A stretch of 64,000 bases of DNA. Source: an uncultured Opitutaceae bacterium. Its GTDB lineage: Bacteria; Verrucomicrobiota; Verrucomicrobiia; Opitutales; Opitutaceae. Location: assembly GCA_937889545.1 (NCBI GenBank), contig CALAOT010000071.1:62001-126000 (forward strand), in the 5' to 3' direction. The translations under genes were made by a program, and so were the position numbers. Within the stretch, counting starts at the first letter, position 1. Every line of letters begins with the position of its first letter. Of this stretch, positions 30,192-38,444 are shown piece by piece. The notes under the pieces were generated by a model. It had not been told where the DNA came from and did not search any database. It saw only the letters and a list, made by a program, of their open reading frames with translations.

Positions 30192-30506
30192 GACTCTGGT
30201 CACTTCAAGGCTGCAGCCCGGGGCAAATGGGGCGATTCGCGAGGCATCGGGACAACCAAGACACTGTGCCTGGATCGGTCCCCTGCAAGACGACTGTAGC
30301 CGTCAGATCGGCGGGCGACATTTCCCATTGGCTGGAAACCGAGTTTCGCGACATGCGAGATGGACGTGCCGCTTGCCGCCGGCTTGCTCCAACGCGCCGT
30401 CATCAATCACAATCCCCGGCAAGCCGAAACCCACGGACCAATCGACTGTTCAAGCTGCCCGCCAAACCGGAGCAACCTCAGCGGTATCGCGATCCCAGAA
30501 CCCACC
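30192..30506. other. 315-nt divergent spacer (GH127-type / GH63-like)
   Basis: Presumed to hold the promoters of both flanking divergent glycosidase genes. The rightward frame stays open across it from 30360 but that stretch encodes no recognisable protein. I see no RNA gene or repeat here. Confidence 0.35.
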
Positions 30507-32465
30507 ATGTCCCTCTGCCCAACTCTCATCCTCCGGCGGATAATCGGAACGCCGTTCCTGTCCCTGTCCGGGCTCAAGCCGTACGTCCTTTGCGCAGGCG
30601 CGCTTGCCTTCCCGATGGCGATCGCCGCCGAGGCGCCTCGCTCGGCCGAGTACGAAACGGCGCAGAGAAGCCTGGCGCAGGGCTGGAACACGTGGGATGT
30701 CTACAGCGTCGGGGCGCAGGTGCTGCTCCCCGAGGGATTCACGATTCGCGTCGGTCTCAAGCACAACTCCGCCCTGTATGCCGACGCATTCCTGTCCGAC
30801 ATGCTGATTGGGCGCCAAGGAGCGGGCGAAGAGAAGGTCTTCCCGGGGCCGCACACATGGAACGGCAGCTATACGGAGCTGCGCGTGTCGTGGCAGAAGC
30901 ATGAACTGATTCTGCAGACCGCCCACGATGGCGGGGACCTCGTCATGCTGGCGACGCCTGTCGGATCGAATGCCGGTCTTCCCCCCACGCTGGTGATCTC
31001 GGCGGGCGTGCTTTGGAACCGCCCGGGCGGCGCTGTGAGATCGGGGGACCATATCGAATTCAGCAGTCCTTCCCGCAAGGTCTTCGTTTACTGGACAGGA
31101 ATAGAACAGCCGGCCGCGGCACTTCCCATCGACGCGCCGTATTTTGCGGCGCCTTTCCAGGGCCCCTTGGGCGCCAGCACCGGTCGTCCACGGTCAGTCG
31201 AACAGATCCGCGCGGTCCTTGGGCGCGAGCAGCCGTCTGGCGCGGGAGTCTCGCGGGCGATCGAGAGCGTGATGGGTTGGGACACGGTCTTCGACCCGTC
31301 AGAGTCGCGGGTCATCTCGCCCGTCAGCCGCCTGTGGTCGACGGGCTGGGGTGGCTATGTCCTGTTCGAGTGGGACACCTTTTTCGCGGCGTCTCTCGCG
31401 GCGGTAGGGGATCGCAACCTAGCATACGCCAACGCGATGGAAATCCTGAGGGAGTCCACCCCGGCGGGCCTCGTGCCCAACTATGCCCGCCCTGGCGGCT
31501 GGAAGAGCTTCGATCGCTCCGAATCGCCAGTCGGCGCGATAACGGTCCTGGGCCTGTACCGAAGATTCCACGATATCTGGTTCCTGCGCGACGCCTTCGA
31601 TCCGCTTCTCCGCTGGAATCGTTGGTGGGATCAGCACCGCGAACTCGGCGGCTATCTCGTCCTTGGCACCGACGCAGGCAACCGACCAACGAACCCTGAT
31701 GACACGGCAGTTGGCACACTGCAGGGTGCAAAGTATGAAGGCCTCGACAACAGCCCCATGTACGACGACGCCCCGTTCGATCGCAACACGGGCAGGATGC
31801 ACTTGGCCGATGTCGGCATAATGAGCCTGTACGTCGCGGACTGCCGCGCGCTGGCTGAGATTGCAGACGTCCTTGGTAACGTCCAGGAGGCCCGGGAATT
31901 GCGGGCCCGCGGAGCGCGCTACTGCGCCAAGCTCCAGGCCCTCTGGGACGAGAAGACGGGGATGTTCCTGAACAAGAACCTGGATACGGGCGGTTTCAGC
32001 ACGCGCCTGTCGCCCACGAATTTCTATCCCATGCTGGCCAAGGCGGCCACGCCCCTGCAGGCCGCCCGCATGGTCAATGAGCACCTGCTCAACCCCGACG
32101 AGTTCTGGGGCGAGTGGGTGATCCCCTCCATCGCCCGGTCCGACCCGGCGTTCCGCGACCAGGAATACTGGCGCGGCCGCATCTGGGGCCCGATGAACTA
32201 TCTGGTGTACCTGGGGCTTCTCAACTACGACCAGCCTTCCGCGCGCAGGCAGTTCGCCCAGAAATCGCTCGCCCTGTTCAACAAGGAGTGGGCGTTGAAC
32301 GGCCACGTGCACGAGAACTACAACGCGATCACGGGGATGGGGGACGACGTCAGCTCGAGTGACCGATTCTACCATTGGGGGGCGCTGCTAGGCCTGATCG
32401 ACTACATGGAAAATGGCTCGGGAACGGATAAGGCCGCAGCGTCCGGTCCCGGTTCGGGCCGCTAG
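30507..32465 (+). CDS. Secreted GH63 / MGH1-like (alpha/alpha)6 glycosidase
   Basis: 652-residue exported protein with a long N-terminal signal region (GLKPYVLCAGALAFPMAIAA). An N-terminal beta-sandwich (about 55-240) precedes an (alpha/alpha)6 barrel with clan GH-G blocks: GGYVLFEWDTFFAASLAAVG, LVPNYARPGGWKSFDRSESP, EGLDNSPMYDD, YWRGRIWGPMNYLVYLGL and ENYNAITGMGDDVSSSDRFYHWGALLG. Relatives include alpha-glucosidases, mannosylglycerate hydrolases and trehalase-like enzymes. The acidic residues in LDNSPMYDD and the Glu of HENYNA are probable catalytic candidates by analogy. The ATG at 30507 was chosen because the upstream 49 residues are not signal-like. Substrate unknown; location in the island suggests side-chain trimming. 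Confidence 0.85.
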   Translation: MSLCPTLILRRIIGTPFLSLSGLKPYVLCAGALAFPMAIAAEAPRSAEYETAQRSLAQGWNTWDVYSVGAQVLLPEGFTIRVGLKHNSALYADAFLSDMLIGRQGAGEEKVFPGPHTWNGSYTELRVSWQKHELILQTAHDGGDLVMLATPVGSNAGLPPTLVISAGVLWNRPGGAVRSGDHIEFSSPSRKVFVYWTGIEQPAAALPIDAPYFAAPFQGPLGASTGRPRSVEQIRAVLGREQPSGAGVSRAIESVMGWDTVFDPSESRVISPVSRLWSTGWGGYVLFEWDTFFAASLAAVGDRNLAYANAMEILRESTPAGLVPNYARPGGWKSFDRSESPVGAITVLGLYRRFHDIWFLRDAFDPLLRWNRWWDQHRELGGYLVLGTDAGNRPTNPDDTAVGTLQGAKYEGLDNSPMYDDAPFDRNTGRMHLADVGIMSLYVADCRALAEIADVLGNVQEARELRARGARYCAKLQALWDEKTGMFLNKNLDTGGFSTRLSPTNFYPMLAKAATPLQAARMVNEHLLNPDEFWGEWVIPSIARSDPAFRDQEYWRGRIWGPMNYLVYLGLLNYDQPSARRQFAQKSLALFNKEWALNGHVHENYNAITGMGDDVSSSDRFYHWGALLGLIDYMENGSGTDKAAASGPGSGR

Positions 32466-32545: not shown

Positions 32546-33481
32546 TCAGTGATGGGTAACCAGCGTTAGCACGATACACCCAGCGACGGCGATAACTCCA
32601 CCGACGATCGAGCGGCGGGTTGGACGATCGCCCTCAAGCCAAAACGCGATCGGAATCGAAACAAGCGGAGTCGTCGCCGCTATGGGAAGAACAACCCCGC
32701 TTGGCGTCGTCGCAAGGGCCCACTGGTAGCAGCCCACGCCGGCGACGGGCCCGGCGAGCCCATTGGCGAGAGTCCACAACAATGGGCCACGAACTCCGGG
32801 CGAGGCGGAAGGCGGCCGACGGGGGAGCCGGCGCAGAAGCCGCAGGATCCAGAACCAACAGAGCGTGAACACAAGCCCTGCCAAGAGCCGCTCGTACGCC
32901 GCCGTCAGTCCAAAAGTCACGTTTGAGACCGATTCGCCGGCCGCGGCCGCGACCATGACCGCCTTGCGGCTCAGAAGGGCGGCGCCGAGGCCCTGGCCGC
33001 AGGCCCCGACGAACCCATAAAGGAGCCCAATCGGCCTCACCCGGACGCGCGGCGGATTCGAGCCGCCCGGGACGATGGCCACGACCACCCCGAGAAGAAT
33101 GACTCCGCCCCAGAGGATCTGGGAAATCGAAAGCCGTGTCCCGAGCCACCACCATTCGCCGAAGGCTGCAAGCGGGGCCGCGAGACACTGGACCATGAGA
33201 ACGGTGATGCGGGAGCCCAGAAGCGGCAAGGCGCCGTATACGCCGAGGTCCCCGACCCCAAGTCCGACAATTCCGCTGATGAAGAACCAGGCTGTTCCTG
33301 CGCTGGTGAAGCCGCCTCCCATCGTGTGGGCGAACAGCCCGAGAACGAGAACCCCGATCACGAGCCGGCTCAGATTGGCACGCAGCGTGCCCAGCACGCG
33401 AATGCTGTGGTTGGCGCAGGTAGCGTTGAGCGCAAAGAAGAAGGCGGAGAGAAAGGCGGGTAGCAAATGCGAGGGGCGCAT
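32546..33481 (-). CDS. EamA/DMT-superfamily transporter
   Basis: 311-residue inner-membrane protein with ten hydrophobic segments arranged as two EamA halves: LLPAFLSAFFFALNATCANH through SQILWGGVILLGVVVAIVPGG, and IGLLYGFVGACGQGLGAALL through SIVGGVIAVAGCIVLTLV. Both halves show the small-residue-rich helices and the closing GGxxxxxG helix of drug/metabolite exporters. Substrate cannot be predicted. The ATG at 33481 begins the first helix directly (MRPSHLLPAFLS). It lies 103 nt downstream of the glycyl-radical activase on the same strand, but two strong hairpins separate them, so it is probably a separate transcript or an attenuated last gene of that operon. Confidence 0.88.
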   Translation of the reverse strand: MRPSHLLPAFLSAFFFALNATCANHSIRVLGTLRANLSRLVIGVLVLGLFAHTMGGGFTSAGTAWFFISGIVGLGVGDLGVYGALPLLGSRITVLMVQCLAAPLAAFGEWWWLGTRLSISQILWGGVILLGVVVAIVPGGSNPPRVRVRPIGLLYGFVGACGQGLGAALLSRKAVMVAAAAGESVSNVTFGLTAAYERLLAGLVFTLCWFWILRLLRRLPRRPPSASPGVRGPLLWTLANGLAGPVAGVGCYQWALATTPSGVVLPIAATTPLVSIPIAFWLEGDRPTRRSIVGGVIAVAGCIVLTLVTHH

Positions 33482-33584: not shown

Positions 33585-34352
33585 TCAGCCGAGGGCGGCC
33601 TGTGGGGCGCCGGCCCCGTGGAGCGAGTCGAGCCAGGCGGCGATTTCGGCCGGCCCGGGCACGTGGGTGCTGAGCTCGGGGCGGGGGCGGCCGAGATCGC
33701 CGTATTTGGCCTCGCCGGCCTCATGGTAGGGCATGAGTTCGATCGCGAGCTTGGGCCAGCGGCGACCGAGCTCCGCAATGGCGCCCAGATGCTCCGCGTC
33801 GTCATTCATCCCGGGCACGAGCGGGCAGCGCAGGCGCACGGACGCGCCAGCCTCCAGAAGGCGGGCGAGATTGGCGAACGGAAGATCGGGCTCGATGCCG
33901 GTGAGCGCGCGGTGGCGGGCCGGGTCGGTGGCCTTGTAATCGTAGAGAAACACGTCGACGTCGGGGCGCAGCGCGTCGAGGCGCGGCCAATCGAGCGCGC
34001 CGCAGGTGTCAAGGCAGGTGTGGATGTTCTCCGCCTTCGCGGCGGCGAGGAGCGCGGCGCAGAACATGTATTGCGCGGTCGGCTCGCCGCCGGAGACCGT
34101 GAGGCCGCCTCCGGACTCGGCGTAATAGCGGGCATCGCGGCGGACGACCGCCATGACCTCCTCGACGGTTGTCGCCCAACCGTAGGTCTTTCCGCTGCGA
34201 CCGGTCTCGGGCGCGAAGGCCTGCGACTCGGGGTTGTGGCACCAGGCGCAGCGAAGCGGGCAGCCTTTCAGAAAGACGACGGTGCGCACGCCCGGGCCGT
34301 CGTGCAGGGCGCCGCGCTGAAGGTCAAAGACGATCCCGACGATGTCATTCAT
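33585..34352 (-). CDS. Glycyl-radical-enzyme activase (PflA-type radical SAM)
   Basis: 255-residue radical S-adenosylmethionine enzyme that installs the glycyl radical on its partner. The cluster motif is CPLRCAWC (CX3CX2C) in FLKGCPLRCAWCHNPES, followed by GGGLTVSGGEP (SAM binding), HTCLDTCGALDW and DVFLYDYKATD. It has no extra ferredoxin domain with additional Cys clusters, so it resembles the short PflA form rather than the longer activases of CutC or benzylsuccinate synthase. The ATG at 34352 overlaps the glycyl radical enzyme gene by 8 nt, so the two are translationally coupled and almost certainly a cognate pair. Last gene of the operon before paired hairpins. Confidence 0.93.
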   Translation of the reverse strand: MNDIVGIVFDLQRGALHDGPGVRTVVFLKGCPLRCAWCHNPESQAFAPETGRSGKTYGWATTVEEVMAVVRRDARYYAESGGGLTVSGGEPTAQYMFCAALLAAAKAENIHTCLDTCGALDWPRLDALRPDVDVFLYDYKATDPARHRALTGIEPDLPFANLARLLEAGASVRLRCPLVPGMNDDAEHLGAIAELGRRWPKLAIELMPYHEAGEAKYGDLGRPRPELSTHVPGPAEIAAWLDSLHGAGAPQAALG

Positions 34353-36648
34353 AGAGCGTGCGGGAGATGATCTCGATCTGGACGTCGCGGGGAAGCTCGA
34401 CAAAGCGGATGCTGAAACCCCCGACGCGCACCATGAGGTGGCCCCAGTTCTCGGGCTCCCTCATCGCCGATTCCAGGTCGGCGCGGGAGACGACGGTGAT
34501 CATTGCCTGGGTGCCGCCGCCGGCCCAGTAGGCGCGCAGCAGGGCCTCCAGCTTCGCGCGGTGCCGGCGGAAGAGGCCGCCGGAGAACTTCATGTTCTGC
34601 ACGGTCCCTGCGTGAATGCCCGGGTCGAGCTTGACCAGGGAGTTCAGGAAAGCCGTGACGCCGCTGCGGTCGGCGCCGGGTGTGGGGTTGTTGCCGTTGG
34701 CGAGTCGTTCGCATGCTCGGCGGCCGTCGGCGGAGGCCGCTGTGGTGCGCCCGAGGATGGTGTTGGCGTGATTGTTGATCACGACGACCAGGTAGCTATC
34801 GAGGCCCACGCGCGCGGCCTGGGCGCGGGTGAGCCCGCAGGCGTGCTCATGGACGCGTTGCGCCATGGCGTCGGCCGCGTCGTCGTCGTTGCCGTATTTC
34901 GGCACGGTCAGGAGTCTTTGGCGCAGGGCCTCATAGTCGGGGCCCGCGAAGTTTGCGTCGAGCGCGGCGACGAGACGCGGGAGCGTGACGGCGCGGTCGC
35001 GGAAGACGACATGCTCGATGGCGAGAAGGGCGTCGGCGGCGGTTGTGTTGCCGTACGTCTCGTTCGTGCCGCCGAGGTGGCGAACGCCGCCGGAAAAGAT
35101 CGGCATGGCGCGGGCAATGCAGTCGTCGTAGAGCGCGCTCAGGAACAGGAAGGGCGCTTCGCGGCCAGCGACGTCGTATTCGATCCTTTCCTGCTCTGCC
35201 AGCGCGGCGACAAAGTGCTCAAGCTGCGCTGCGTAGGCGCGCCAGACGCCTTCGAACGAGGCGAACCCGGCGACGTTGCCCGTTCTCGGGCCCGCCTGGC
35301 GGCGCGCAACGGGGTCCCAGCCGTCGTGCAGGGCGAGCTCAAGGCACTTGGCAAGGTTGACAACGCCGTTGGGGGTGCCGACGGACCGGTGGGCGAGGAC
35401 GTACTCGCCGCAGCCGTAGGGCGTATACTGGGCGGCTTCGGTCTCTTGGACGCCAAAGGCGCGGGCGACGGCGGGGATATTGACGTCGTCGTTGTAGAGG
35501 ATGGGGAAGGTGCAGCCTTCGCCGATGACGTCGAGGGCGCGTGCCATGAGGGCGGGGTTCTGGCCCTTGTAAAAGCGGAGGGAGAGCTGGGGCTGGTTGA
35601 GGCAAACGCGGCGCGTGGCCTCCATGGCGAGGAGGGCGAAGCGGTCGGAGGCATCCCCGTCCGCGCGGCCGCGCCCGCCGATGATGACCCGGTTGTTGAA
35701 CTGGTTTTCGTAGGCCTTCATCAGGCGCCACCAGCTGCAAATGGTCTCGGTGGCCGTCTCCTCCGTGAGGAGGCGGGCGTCCAGATCCCGGGCAAGGAAC
35801 GGGCCGAGCCAATCGTCGACGCGGCCGTAGTTCCAAGTGCCGCTGATGAGAGCATAGATCCACGCGAGCTGAATGGCCTCGTGAAAGGTTGCTGGCGCCC
35901 GCTGAGCGACAGCCTCGCAGGAGGAGGCAATGACCTTCAGCTCGGCCTCGCGGGCGTCGTCACCGCAGTCGGCGGCGAGGGAGCGGGACTGTGCCGCGTA
36001 GTGGCGGAGCGAGGCTGCCACCAGGCGGAGGGCCGCGCGCAGTCCCTCGAGAAATTCGCGCTGCGCAGGTTCGGCTCCGGCCACGCGGGCGGCGACCTCC
36101 GCGTCGAGACCGCCCAAGCCGAGGCGGAGGAGCTTCGCGTAGTCGAGCACGGTGCCGGCCATGCGGTAGAGCGGGAAGGCGGCGCCGCTATCGCTGGTCC
36201 AGGCGTCGGAGGGGAGCGCGGCGGCGAGGGCGGGCGGGTAGGCGGCCCGGGTCTTGGACTCGGTCGTGCGCGCCTCCCAGAAGGCGATCAACTCCTCGGC
36301 TTCGGCGCGGGCGGCCTCATCAAGGCCGCGCTCGGTGACGACACTTCGGATCTGGCCGGCGAGGCAGGCGTACCCTAGGCCGCCAGGCTCGGGGCCGAAG
36401 GAGACGAGCGGGTAGCGGATGCGGCCTGCGATGAGATCGCCGTCCTCGATCGGCTCGAACGAGGATGGGAATTGGGACGAGAGGACGGCAAGCTCCCGGG
36501 TCACCGGCGAGTCGTGCTCGTGGGCGCGAAAGGCCGCCGTGATGGCCCGTTCGCGGGCCAACGGGGCGGGGGCGGCCAGCGCGGCTTCGACATTCAGGTC
36601 GTGCAGGGTCTTCATTGTCTGGCGAAAGGGGGAGGCGGCGTGCGCCAT
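34345..36648 (-). CDS. Glycyl radical enzyme of unassigned specificity (PFL-like)
   Basis: 767-residue anaerobic radical enzyme of the pyruvate formate-lyase superfamily. The glycyl-radical loop near the C-terminus is RVGGFSIRFVEL with Gly744 as radical site. The thiyl-radical Cys is Cys413 in TPYGCGEYVLAHRS. A single Cys in a GCxE loop excludes true pyruvate formate-lyase, which has adjacent Cys-Cys, and points to a dehydratase, decarboxylase or lyase subtype. The usual diol-dehydratase and choline-lyase loop reads GCVE or GCIE; here it is GCGE. The substrate is unknown. ATG 36648 has GGAG at good spacing, 15 nt after the PhyH stop. Its stop overlaps the activase start. Operon order: PhyH oxygenase, this gene, activase. 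Confidence 0.92.
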   Translation of the reverse strand: MAHAASPFRQTMKTLHDLNVEAALAAPAPLARERAITAAFRAHEHDSPVTRELAVLSSQFPSSFEPIEDGDLIAGRIRYPLVSFGPEPGGLGYACLAGQIRSVVTERGLDEAARAEAEELIAFWEARTTESKTRAAYPPALAAALPSDAWTSDSGAAFPLYRMAGTVLDYAKLLRLGLGGLDAEVAARVAGAEPAQREFLEGLRAALRLVAASLRHYAAQSRSLAADCGDDAREAELKVIASSCEAVAQRAPATFHEAIQLAWIYALISGTWNYGRVDDWLGPFLARDLDARLLTEETATETICSWWRLMKAYENQFNNRVIIGGRGRADGDASDRFALLAMEATRRVCLNQPQLSLRFYKGQNPALMARALDVIGEGCTFPILYNDDVNIPAVARAFGVQETEAAQYTPYGCGEYVLAHRSVGTPNGVVNLAKCLELALHDGWDPVARRQAGPRTGNVAGFASFEGVWRAYAAQLEHFVAALAEQERIEYDVAGREAPFLFLSALYDDCIARAMPIFSGGVRHLGGTNETYGNTTAADALLAIEHVVFRDRAVTLPRLVAALDANFAGPDYEALRQRLLTVPKYGNDDDAADAMAQRVHEHACGLTRAQAARVGLDSYLVVVINNHANTILGRTTAASADGRRACERLANGNNPTPGADRSGVTAFLNSLVKLDPGIHAGTVQNMKFSGGLFRRHRAKLEALLRAYWAGGGTQAMITVVSRADLESAMREPENWGHLMVRVGGFSIRFVELPRDVQIEIISRTLYE

Positions 36649-36663
36649 CGGCGGGGGCTCCGC

Positions 36664-37503
36664 TCAATGGGAGTTCCTGTAGGAATTCAACATGCCGCGC
36701 CTGGCGAGGACCTCGGGGTAGGCGCGGGTCGGCTCGGCGTAGACGTTTCCCCCCAGATCGCGGCCGCGGGCGAGGTACACCTGGTGAGCGCCCCCAAAGG
36801 CCTCGTCGTTGAACCTCGCGCGGGTGGAGCAGAAGCGGAGCGTCCAGCCGCAGCGGCGGAGGTCGGAGGTGTTGGGCTCGGAACCGTGCTGTATGCGCGC
36901 GTCGTGGAGCGAGCACTGGTTGGGTTGGAGCTCGATGTAGACGCGACGGGAATCATCGCGCTGCCGCTGGACGATCTCGGAGCCAAACACGCTCGTTGAT
37001 AGGTCGACGTTTTCGTAGTCTGAGAAGCCCTGTCGCGCCTCGCGGTGCGTGCGGGGTATCACCATCATGCAGCCGTTGACCTTGGTGGAGGGGTCAATGG
37101 CGAGCCAGACTGTGCAAACCTCCATGGGCGTGATCTTGCCCTTCCAGTAGGCGGAGTCCTCGTGCCATGGCACGCGCCTGCCGCTGCCCTTGGGCTTGCA
37201 GATGAAATGGGTCGAGAAAAGAGCGAGGTCCTCGCCGAGGATGGGAGTGGCAAGGCAGAGGATCGACTCGTCGAGGGCCCACTCGAGCAGCTTCGGGTGC
37301 ATGAAGTGGGGAACGTCCATAGCCTCGGGGCGCTCGCCGGCTGGCAGATCGGCGAGGATCTCCTCAAAACAGGACTTCAGGCCGTCGAATCTGGCCTCGG
37401 GGAGGACGGGCTGATCGAAGACGAGGTAGCCTTCGCTCTCGTAGTGCCGGACTTGGCCGGAGGTGAGGCGGCCGGTGCGGATCGGGCCGCTGATTGCAGA
37501 CAT
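36664..37503 (-). CDS. Phytanoyl-CoA dioxygenase (PhyH) family Fe(II)/2-oxoglutarate oxygenase
   Basis: 279-residue cytoplasmic oxygenase. The iron ligands appear as His and Asp in PWHEDSAYWKG and a distal His in ARIQHGSEPN, with Arg in CGWTLRFCSTR as the probable 2-oxoglutarate anchor. The N-terminus GQVRHYESEGYLVFDQPVL is the usual PhyH entry. Bacterial members hydroxylate many small metabolites; the substrate here is not evident. ATG 37503 is preferred since it leaves 95 nt for divergent promoters; ATG 37545 is the alternative. It is the first gene of the operon with the glycyl radical enzyme and its activase, so an O2-consuming and an O2-sensitive enzyme are co-transcribed. Confidence 0.88.
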   Translation of the reverse strand: MSAISGPIRTGRLTSGQVRHYESEGYLVFDQPVLPEARFDGLKSCFEEILADLPAGERPEAMDVPHFMHPKLLEWALDESILCLATPILGEDLALFSTHFICKPKGSGRRVPWHEDSAYWKGKITPMEVCTVWLAIDPSTKVNGCMMVIPRTHREARQGFSDYENVDLSTSVFGSEIVQRQRDDSRRVYIELQPNQCSLHDARIQHGSEPNTSDLRRCGWTLRFCSTRARFNDEAFGGAHQVYLARGRDLGGNVYAEPTRAYPEVLARRGMLNSYRNSH

Positions 37504-37598
37504 AGTGGTGGAAAGGGTTGGCTTGGGGAAGACGGGCATGAACATAGCTCATGATATCTGACGTGACTTGCCATATGGTGACATTTATATGTGTTTAA

Positions 37599-38444
37599 AT
37601 GATATCGGCTGCCTCTCCAAGATTGCTCCTTGGGCGAATCGTGGCACCTGGAGAATACGGCCATGTGGCCCGACCGCGGCTCACGCGACGACGCACGCTG
37701 CACGCGCACACCCACGATTTCGCGGAGATCTTCTGGATAAACGAAGGCCAGGGTTGGCATCTTATCAACGGGCGGCGGGAACGACTGCTGCCGGGCGACC
37801 TGTGGTGCATCCGGCCGGAGGACGTGCACCAGCTCGTCCCGGTCGGGACGGGGCTGCTTGCGATCACCAACATCGCGTTTCCGACGGAGGGGCTCGAGTG
37901 GCTGAGGCAGCGCTATTTCGCGGGCGAGGCGCGCTGGTTCTGGCTGCCGCCCGAGGCGCGGGGTCCCGTTCCGGTGGACGCGGTGCGCCTGCACGCGCTA
38001 AACACTGCGGCGGACAAGCTGGCATTCGCGCCCCGCGACCGGCTGCACTTTGAGCATTTCCTGCTCGGGGTTTTTGCGGAGCTGGGCGGCCCGCCCGATG
38101 AGCTTGGGCTTGCAGGCGCGCCCGACTGGCTTGGGGAAGCGTGCCGGCGGATGTGCGAGCCCGAGCCGCTGCGCGAGGGTGTGACGGCATTGTTCCGGCT
38201 GGCGGGACGCTCGCCGGAGCATGTGGCCCGCGTGATGAGGGCGATGCTCGGAATTACGCCGAGCGAGTACGTGAACCGCCGACGGATCGCGCAAGCTGCC
38301 TTTCAGCTGCGGATGACGGCGCGGCCCGTGACGGAGATCGCGTTCGAGGTGGGCTACGAGAACCTGAGCCACTTCTTCCACGTGTTTCGCAGGCTAAATG
38401 GCACGAGCCCAAGAAGCTACCGGGCGCGTCTGGCCGCGACGTAG
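37599..38444 (+). CDS. AraC-family transcriptional regulator with cupin sensor
   Basis: 281-residue regulator. The N-terminal cupin-like sensor (HAHTHDFAEIFWINEGQGWH, LLPGDLWCIRPEDVHQL) is of the type that binds sugars or small organic effectors. The C-terminal double helix-turn-helix domain carries the AraC signatures SPSEYVNRRRIAQAAFQLR (written here ITPSEYVNRRRIAQAAFQLR) and ITEIAFEVGYENLSHFFHVF-like TEIAFEVGYENLSHFFHVF. It is transcribed away from the PhyH-glycyl radical operon and is most likely its activator. Starts at ATG 37599 in an unusually AT-rich spacer with no clear ribosome-binding site. The 95-nt spacer contains the 8-bp palindrome CCATATGG, a possible operator element. Confidence 0.9.
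   Translation: MISAASPRLLLGRIVAPGEYGHVARPRLTRRRTLHAHTHDFAEIFWINEGQGWHLINGRRERLLPGDLWCIRPEDVHQLVPVGTGLLAITNIAFPTEGLEWLRQRYFAGEARWFWLPPEARGPVPVDAVRLHALNTAADKLAFAPRDRLHFEHFLLGVFAELGGPPDELGLAGAPDWLGEACRRMCEPEPLREGVTALFRLAGRSPEHVARVMRAMLGITPSEYVNRRRIAQAAFQLRMTARPVTEIAFEVGYENLSHFFHVFRRLNGTSPRSYRARLAAT

Follow-up and report, generated by a model that had tools for sequence, protein, structure and literature searches.

A recurrent neighbourhood of a PhyH-type oxygenase and a glycyl radical enzyme of a separate clade may hold two oxygen-regime routes for one carbohydrate-type compound

Layout of the locus

The window (the whole 64,000-nucleotide stretch analysed, from an uncultured Opitutaceae bacterium) carries three leftward genes, encoding a PhyH-type oxygenase (P0002), a glycyl radical enzyme (GRE; P0001) and a radical SAM activase (P0003), with a divergent AraC-family regulator gene (P0004; Table 1). 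The oxygenase and GRE genes are separated by 15 nt, the GRE and activase genes overlap by 8 nt, and the AraC gene starts 53 nt from the start of the PhyH ORF; alignment with relatives, including that at locus L098, suggests that the true start of P0002 is the in-frame ATG at 37503. These distances and the clear Pfam families bear out the original prediction of a tight PhyH, GRE and activase unit with a cupin-AraC gene transcribed away from it. P0003 also scored above the TIGR02494 cut-off (244.6 bits against 174.35). In the host genome (4.33 Mb in 128 contigs), P0001 is the sole PF02901 match, and there are 2 PhyH matches.

Table 1. Coordinates of the genes and the putative operator within the window
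Feature	Coordinates	Strand	Evidence
PhyH-type Fe(II)/2-oxoglutarate oxygenase gene (P0002)	36664..37545	-	Pfam PF05721, 2.7e-24; 293 aa
Glycyl radical enzyme (GRE) gene (P0001)	34345..36648	-	PF02901, 2e-115, and PF01228, 3.7e-17; 767 aa
GRE activase (radical SAM) gene (P0003)	33585..34352	-	Radical_SAM PF04055, 1.2e-17; 255 aa
Divergent AraC-family regulator gene (P0004), cupin-type sensor domain	37599..38444	+	AraC_binding PF02311, HTH_18 PF12833
Putative bipartite operator AACACAT-N17-GCAAGT, AraC/PhyH intergenic	37566..37595	-	Pattern match; pattern partly derived from the same site

Since no sigma-70-like promoter was found between 33400 and 38700, and terminator-like sites in that interval were not enriched (3, against a shuffle mean of 3.3), it is from gene spacing that we infer a single mRNA for PhyH, GRE and activase. 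Genes for an EamA transporter (32546-33481, minus strand) and an MGH1-like glycosidase (30360-32465, plus strand), together with a GH127-like gene, lie 3' of the activase and are not counted as operon members. PADLOC returned no matches.

A separate clade of glycyl radical enzymes

P0001 possesses the PFL-like domain, C-terminal glycyl radical domain, cysteine and neighbouring CxxxCxxC activase of the GRE superfamily, and an activase lies within 2 genes of the clade GRE in 46 of 53 loci. The predicted thiyl-position cysteine (Cys413) and the glycine of the glycyl loop RVGGF (Gly744) are intact, as had been proposed, and both were invariant in a 46-sequence alignment. A glutamate stands two residues after the cysteine (Cys413/Glu415), which would give P0001 the Cys-x-Glu arrangement of eliminases and dehydratases, where the glutamate acts as base.

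In a tree of 95 GRE rows, one branch (SH-aLRT 100, length 0.89) sets the 47 clade rows, without exception, apart from CutC, four HypD-type rows, YbiW and PflD. The tree was made by a quick method whose tool warned of long branches; it drew on 45 of the 73 other loci, omitted 7 clade sequences that were duplicates, fragments or ORFs of the wrong size, and contained no diol dehydratases. The clade rows also share residues found in none of the 76 others: C-G-E at the cysteine in 46/47 (the exception, L152, has C-T-E), R-x-G-G at the glycine in 46/47, and Arg320 with Asn625 in 47/47. The GCGE loop, flagged at the outset as unusual, is thus a marker of the clade. In the alignment Arg320 falls two residues past the position of Tyr339 in 1r8w, which we take to be an active-site residue, and for this reason Arg320 probably faces the pocket.

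Curated models gave a similar placement, such that P0001 reached none of the NCBIfam GRE equivalog cut-offs (HypD, CutC, HpsG/HpfG, PFL, decarboxylases). HypD, CutC and HpsG/HpfG belong to the same superfamily, and their models match weakly, all below the curated cut-offs (HpsG 264/1000, HypD 259/1100, CutC 240/1050; subfamily TIGR01774 330/678 bits). Tree and cut-offs together put P0001 in none of the groups compared, in line with the original expectation of an enzyme outside the characterised clusters, and we conclude from sequence comparison that it is a member of a separate, cross-phylum GRE clade.

An AF2 model of P0001 (pLDDT 91.2, pTM 0.91) returned only GREs among its best 50 Foldseek matches, with diol dehydratases (glycerol, 1r8w; 1,2-propanediol, 5i2g and 9rco) on top as the closest folds at 25-27% identity. 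Diol dehydratases are also among the best sequence matches and have Cys-x-Glu in common with P0001, in which two near-pocket loops are shortened relative to the other GREs aligned. The model likewise matches YbiW with 1,5-anhydroglucitol-6-phosphate (8id7) and streptococcal PflD with 1,5-anhydromannitol-6-phosphate (8id0), which share the GRE fold. These two differ from the P0001 clade in having GCIE or GCVE and RVAGY in place of GCGE and RxGG, P0001 has shorter loops and unlike pocket motifs, and the clade does not nest with either, lying across the tree's main branch from both.

Relatives at E<=1e-100 occurred in 13/200 genomes of the host's family, 12/372 of its order (partly repeating the family matches) and 10/387 of its phylum, all three counts including the host genome, as well as in 5/291 genomes in the class of an Anaeromassilibacillus genome and 7/375 in the phylum of a Marinilabiliaceae genome. 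Among the best 80 loci of a species-genome scan, six were 39-64% identical to P0001 and the others at most 34%. In one genome of the host's family (G053; L102, 2356-10285) the clade GRE has a further, highly divergent GRE nearby, which comes with an activase of its own.

The PhyH oxygenase

Aligned with its relatives, P0002 retains the HxD...H triad and an RR pair, which would make it a PhyH Fe(II)/2-oxoglutarate oxygenase, a family whose catalytic motif set consists of HxD...H and a distal arginine. The nearest solved sequences are 6zyk and EvdO2 (4xab), at E 3.7e-14 and 2.6e-12, a likeness of only 50-56 bits; EvdO2 acts on sugar parts of an antibiotic. Persicobacter aside, plasmid-borne PhyH relatives were at most 38% identical among the matches listed, with uninformative neighbours. 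At two stand-alone PhyH loci (L223, 11264-12070; L227, 10631-11401), the only ones inspected in this way, we noted by eye an AMP-nucleosidase-like protein three genes away and, on the opposite side of PhyH, genes resembling cytochrome-oxidase assembly factors.

Recurrence of the PhyH-GRE neighbourhood

We compared 53 distinct clade loci, using ORFs called by our own script, with some genomes contributing two loci and one duplicate dropped (L100, identical to L002). In 9 of the 53, across two phyla (the window, L098, L106, L122, L125, L127, L130, L143 and L151), a P0002-like PhyH lay no more than 2 genes from the GRE and shared its strand. Three gene orders were seen: PhyH-GRE-activase (window, L151), PhyH-TIM barrel-GRE-activase (L098, L106, L122, L125, L127) and GRE-activase-PhyH (L143). 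L151, from Persicobacter (Bacteroidota), repeats the layout of the window, with AraC beside PhyH-GRE-activase and gaps of 12 and 4 nt. At L130 (8053-9987, genome G455) PhyH and GRE are both internally deleted or misassembled, leaving 8 intact pairs; at L107 PhyH is three genes away on the opposite strand; and a second, distinct PhyH subfamily occurs within 7 genes of the GRE at L180, L181 and L184, in the bacteroidote group.

The neighbourhood is real and very unlikely to be a matter of chance. From 27 PhyH matches in 13 genomes of about 61 Mb, a rough density given that the genomes were mostly picked for holding these loci, we expected PhyH inside 5 kb at 0.23 of 53 loci, and the nine observed have a binomial P(>=9) of 2e-12, itself rough with loci that are not independent. 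The pairs are moreover scattered over several branches of the GRE tree as well as over the two phyla and three gene orders. Set against this, genome-level co-occurrence is not significant and sister GREs are found without PhyH (see below), but a fortuitous meeting of the two genes is in our judgement scarcely credible. By the terms of the original prediction, the pairing would have been incidental had the GRE belonged to a characterised group or had PhyH been missing beside its homologues; neither is the case, because P0001 lies outside the characterised groups compared and PhyH recurs beside GRE homologues.

The activases of the clade differ in an insert between CxxxCxxC and GGxTxSGGEP, a segment of 43-50 residues where the insert is absent and 86-92 where it is present, cysteine-rich in nearly all insert-bearing sequences. 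P0003 has 43 residues and no cysteine there. Of 41 scored activases, 14 are without the insert (window, L098, L102, L103, L109, L110, L122, L123, L125, L126, L127, L141, L142 and L143), comprising 6/8 of those with PhyH and 8/33 of those without (Fisher p 0.012, kinship uncorrected). The activases of L107 and L129 have the full insert length with few cysteines.

A literature search, with most subscription journals outside its coverage, found no paper on a PhyH-GRE pairing among the titles and abstract openings listed. In E. coli, ybiU (Gig2-like, solved as 2dbi/2csg; L236, 1-5001) adjoins ybiV and the GRE genes ybiW-ybiY on the same strand. We take the ybiU fold to be of oxygenase type, and if YbiU is an oxygenase, ybiU-ybiY would be a parallel oxygenase-GRE neighbourhood.

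PhyH and GRE without each other

Across 200 genomes of the host's family, a P0002-like PhyH (E<=1e-60) was present in 46, the clade GRE in 13 and both in 5, such that 41 of the 46 PhyH genomes are without the GRE and co-occurrence is not significant (5/13 vs 41/187, Fisher p 0.18). It follows from these counts that the two are not obligate partners and that each is mostly found without the other. The source genomes of the nearest GRE sisters after L098 (G016, from the host's family, and G086) have no PhyH match of any kind, and a P0002-like PhyH is absent, in stretches of up to 7 genes a side, from 8 Bacillota and Spirochaetota GRE loci (L004-L007, and L175-L178 as assigned by search group). 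Conversely, among 20 PhyH loci away from GREs, a P0004-like AraC directly adjoins PhyH in 11 and not in 9; for one of the 11 (L218), the source genome has a clade GRE elsewhere.

These distributions bear on two readings in which one enzyme would serve the other. Under the first, PhyH scavenges O2 or otherwise guards the GRE from oxygen; adjacency is what speaks for this, and we judge it very unlikely, with the 41 GRE-free family genomes, the 44 of 53 clade loci that have no same-strand P0002-like PhyH within 2 genes, and the catalytic motif set that P0002 has kept all counting against it. Under the second, the enzymes form a linear pathway in which the product of PhyH is the substrate of the GRE, or vice versa, and the cells alternate between oxic and anoxic phases. 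The close packing of the genes, both in the window and in Persicobacter, would suit such a pathway, which is nonetheless unlikely given that each enzyme occurs alone, often beside related regulators, and that their oxygen demands conflict.

Regulators and a putative operator

We built a tree of AraC regulators taken from the locus neighbours and added 21 controls, of which three of the genomes already used supplied 18 and E. coli the other 3 (10 further control loci were dropped for want of a matching ORF of 230-360 aa). One clade (100/99) gathered 12/16 regulators from GRE-only loci, 11/11 from PhyH-only loci, 6/7 from combined loci and 0/21 controls; those outside were L151, L152, L128, L004 and L175, the first being the Persicobacter PhyH-GRE locus. 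A plasmid search with P0004 gave 784 matching records, four of which were taken into the tree, and all four fell inside the clade. They lie beside sugar ABC transporters and Gfo/Idh/MocA genes in Rhizobium and Martelella (L292, L293; the Rhizobium plasmid gene is annotated short), beside GH92 genes in Flammeovirga (L295), and beside a different GRE on Persicobacter plasmid pPP6 (L294). Because these four counter-examples fall inside it, the clade reads, on sequence grounds, as a family of sugar-gene regulators not tied to PhyH or to the clade GRE. The pPP6 GRE (L294, 11350-14399) has GCNW rather than GCxE and RITGF at the glycine, with a GH47 gene nearby.

An operator-like pattern, AACACA-W-N17-S-CAAG-W, matched 15 times in 13 genomes, 13 of these at AraC-PhyH, compared with 8 matches for the reversed control; as the pattern was drawn from AraC-PhyH promoters, these counts add something new only on how scarce it is elsewhere. 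In 11 of the 13 genomes it occurs once, at AraC-PhyH, which may mean that the regulator serves a single promoter. The window site is the sole match in the host genome (reversed control, 2), and we consider it a putative operator.

A weight matrix built from PhyH-only sites gave the window a score reached in 19/1000 shuffles, and, among 14 GRE-only regions, picked out a site (<=40/1000 shuffles) in six (L006, L179, L180, L182, L183 and L184, with L182-L184 being close relatives). It was not significant in the other eight (L004, L007, L141, L144, L175, L177, L181, L185) nor at the combined loci L098 (151/1000) and L151 (433/1000), and a looser pattern was absent near AraC or PhyH at the combined loci L106, L122, L125, L127 and L143 and at L141 and L227. 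The distribution and the AraC tree fit a pair selected by oxygen, in which each member may occur alone under related control, although the AraC clade takes in other regulators as well and the operator turns up at only part of the loci.

Substrate clues and interpretation

Within 7 genes of the clade GRE across the 53 loci, the commonest neighbours were Gfo/Idh/MocA (12), AKR (8), TIM barrel c6 (7), GH130 (6), GH92 (6) and nucleoside-hydrolase-like genes (6), the clusters being named by the Pfam of their representatives and AKR by eye. A Parabacteroides clade GRE locus adds NanE and ROK neighbours, and a GH47 gene adjoins the other Persicobacter GRE. These neighbours point to carbohydrates, with a mannose flavour from GH92, GH47 and GH130. 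Inositol, glycerate and nucleoside-derived substrates were considered in view of the Gfo/Idh/MocA, MGH1-like and nucleoside-hydrolase-like genes, and nothing decided between them. Sulfonate cleavage was considered because HpsG gave the best of the weak equivalog scores, and was set aside with no sulfite gene among the neighbour representatives scanned, most neighbours lying outside that scan. Genes of DeoC-aldolase and ribokinase type lie some kb from clade GREs at L141 (15433-16197), L151 (32934-34121) and L176, and URO-D-like genes occur 1 gene away at L111 (below the Pfam cut-off), 2 away at L102 and L128 (by similarity to L178) and 4 away at L178 itself (PF01208).

The reading that fits best is of two oxygen-regime routes, that is, a substrate-induced operon in which two chemically different enzymes act on one carbohydrate-type compound and oxygen itself chooses between them; we favour it tentatively, with rather less than even confidence. 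The AraC protein would sense a sugar or polyol and switch on the leftward operon. With O2 present, PhyH would hydroxylate the compound at an unreactive C-H, drawing on Fe(II), 2-oxoglutarate and O2. In its absence, the activase would place a radical on Gly744, from where it would move to Cys413, which would attack the same compound in what is probably a dehydration or C-O cleavage, with Glu415 the likely base. That both enzymes share a substrate is our supposition. Of the two readings first offered, oxygen-regime routes and an oxygenase that supports the GRE through its product or by removing O2, the former is the better fit, and the latter fits badly with enzymes that are each so often alone.

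The nearest competitor, which two oxygen-regime routes outrank, has the AraC protein answering a sugar signal while PhyH and GRE, though co-regulated, act on different parts of one glycan or on different sugars. This is possible, if on balance doubtful. It draws on the sugar transporters, GH92 genes and different GRE found beside regulators of the same clade, and on the varied company of the clade GREs listed above; the confinement of the operator-like pattern to one AraC-PhyH site in most genomes speaks against it, with the reservation already given on how that pattern was drawn. We prefer two oxygen-regime routes because either enzyme can be found where the other is missing, in many cases beside related regulators. 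Pairs of the HemF/HemN type resemble this proposal in that two unrelated enzymes, one O2-dependent and one O2-independent, serve one step and oxygen chooses between them; they are biosynthetic, and here the common step is our inference. We know of no such pair in one substrate-induced operon.

By analogy, a compound that needs radical attack whether or not O2 is present, and that a single oxygenase could render edible, could be an anhydroalditol. A review (PMC12441222) describes YbiW and PflD of E. coli as opening anhydroalditol rings as 6-phosphates, and, in Rhizobiaceae, a P450-like, not yet identified enzyme that hydroxylates C1 of 1,5-anhydromannitol to give mannose; it also implies that aerobic 1,5-anhydroglucitol use has no identified enzyme. 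A narrower version of the oxygen-selected operon would then concern one cyclic-ether sugar alcohol of the anhydromannitol or anhydroglucitol type, PhyH hydroxylating C1 to yield the free aldose and the GCGE GRE opening the C-O ring. We regard this as improbable, and the alignment counts against it, as none of the pocket motifs we saw there links P0001 to YbiW or PflD in particular. Were it true, P0002 would be a candidate aerobic anhydroalditol hydroxylase, and a speculative one, of non-P450 kind, for the missing enzyme.

If two oxygen-regime routes are indeed what the locus encodes, an O2-using and an O2-killed enzyme would be made together with no oxygen sensor needed, which is unusual for a catabolic operon, and the GRE-only and PhyH-only genomes offer natural tests of that reading. 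The cross-phylum GRE clade, with an active-site signature of its own and no reaction assigned among the models compared, is in turn a concrete target for enzyme discovery.
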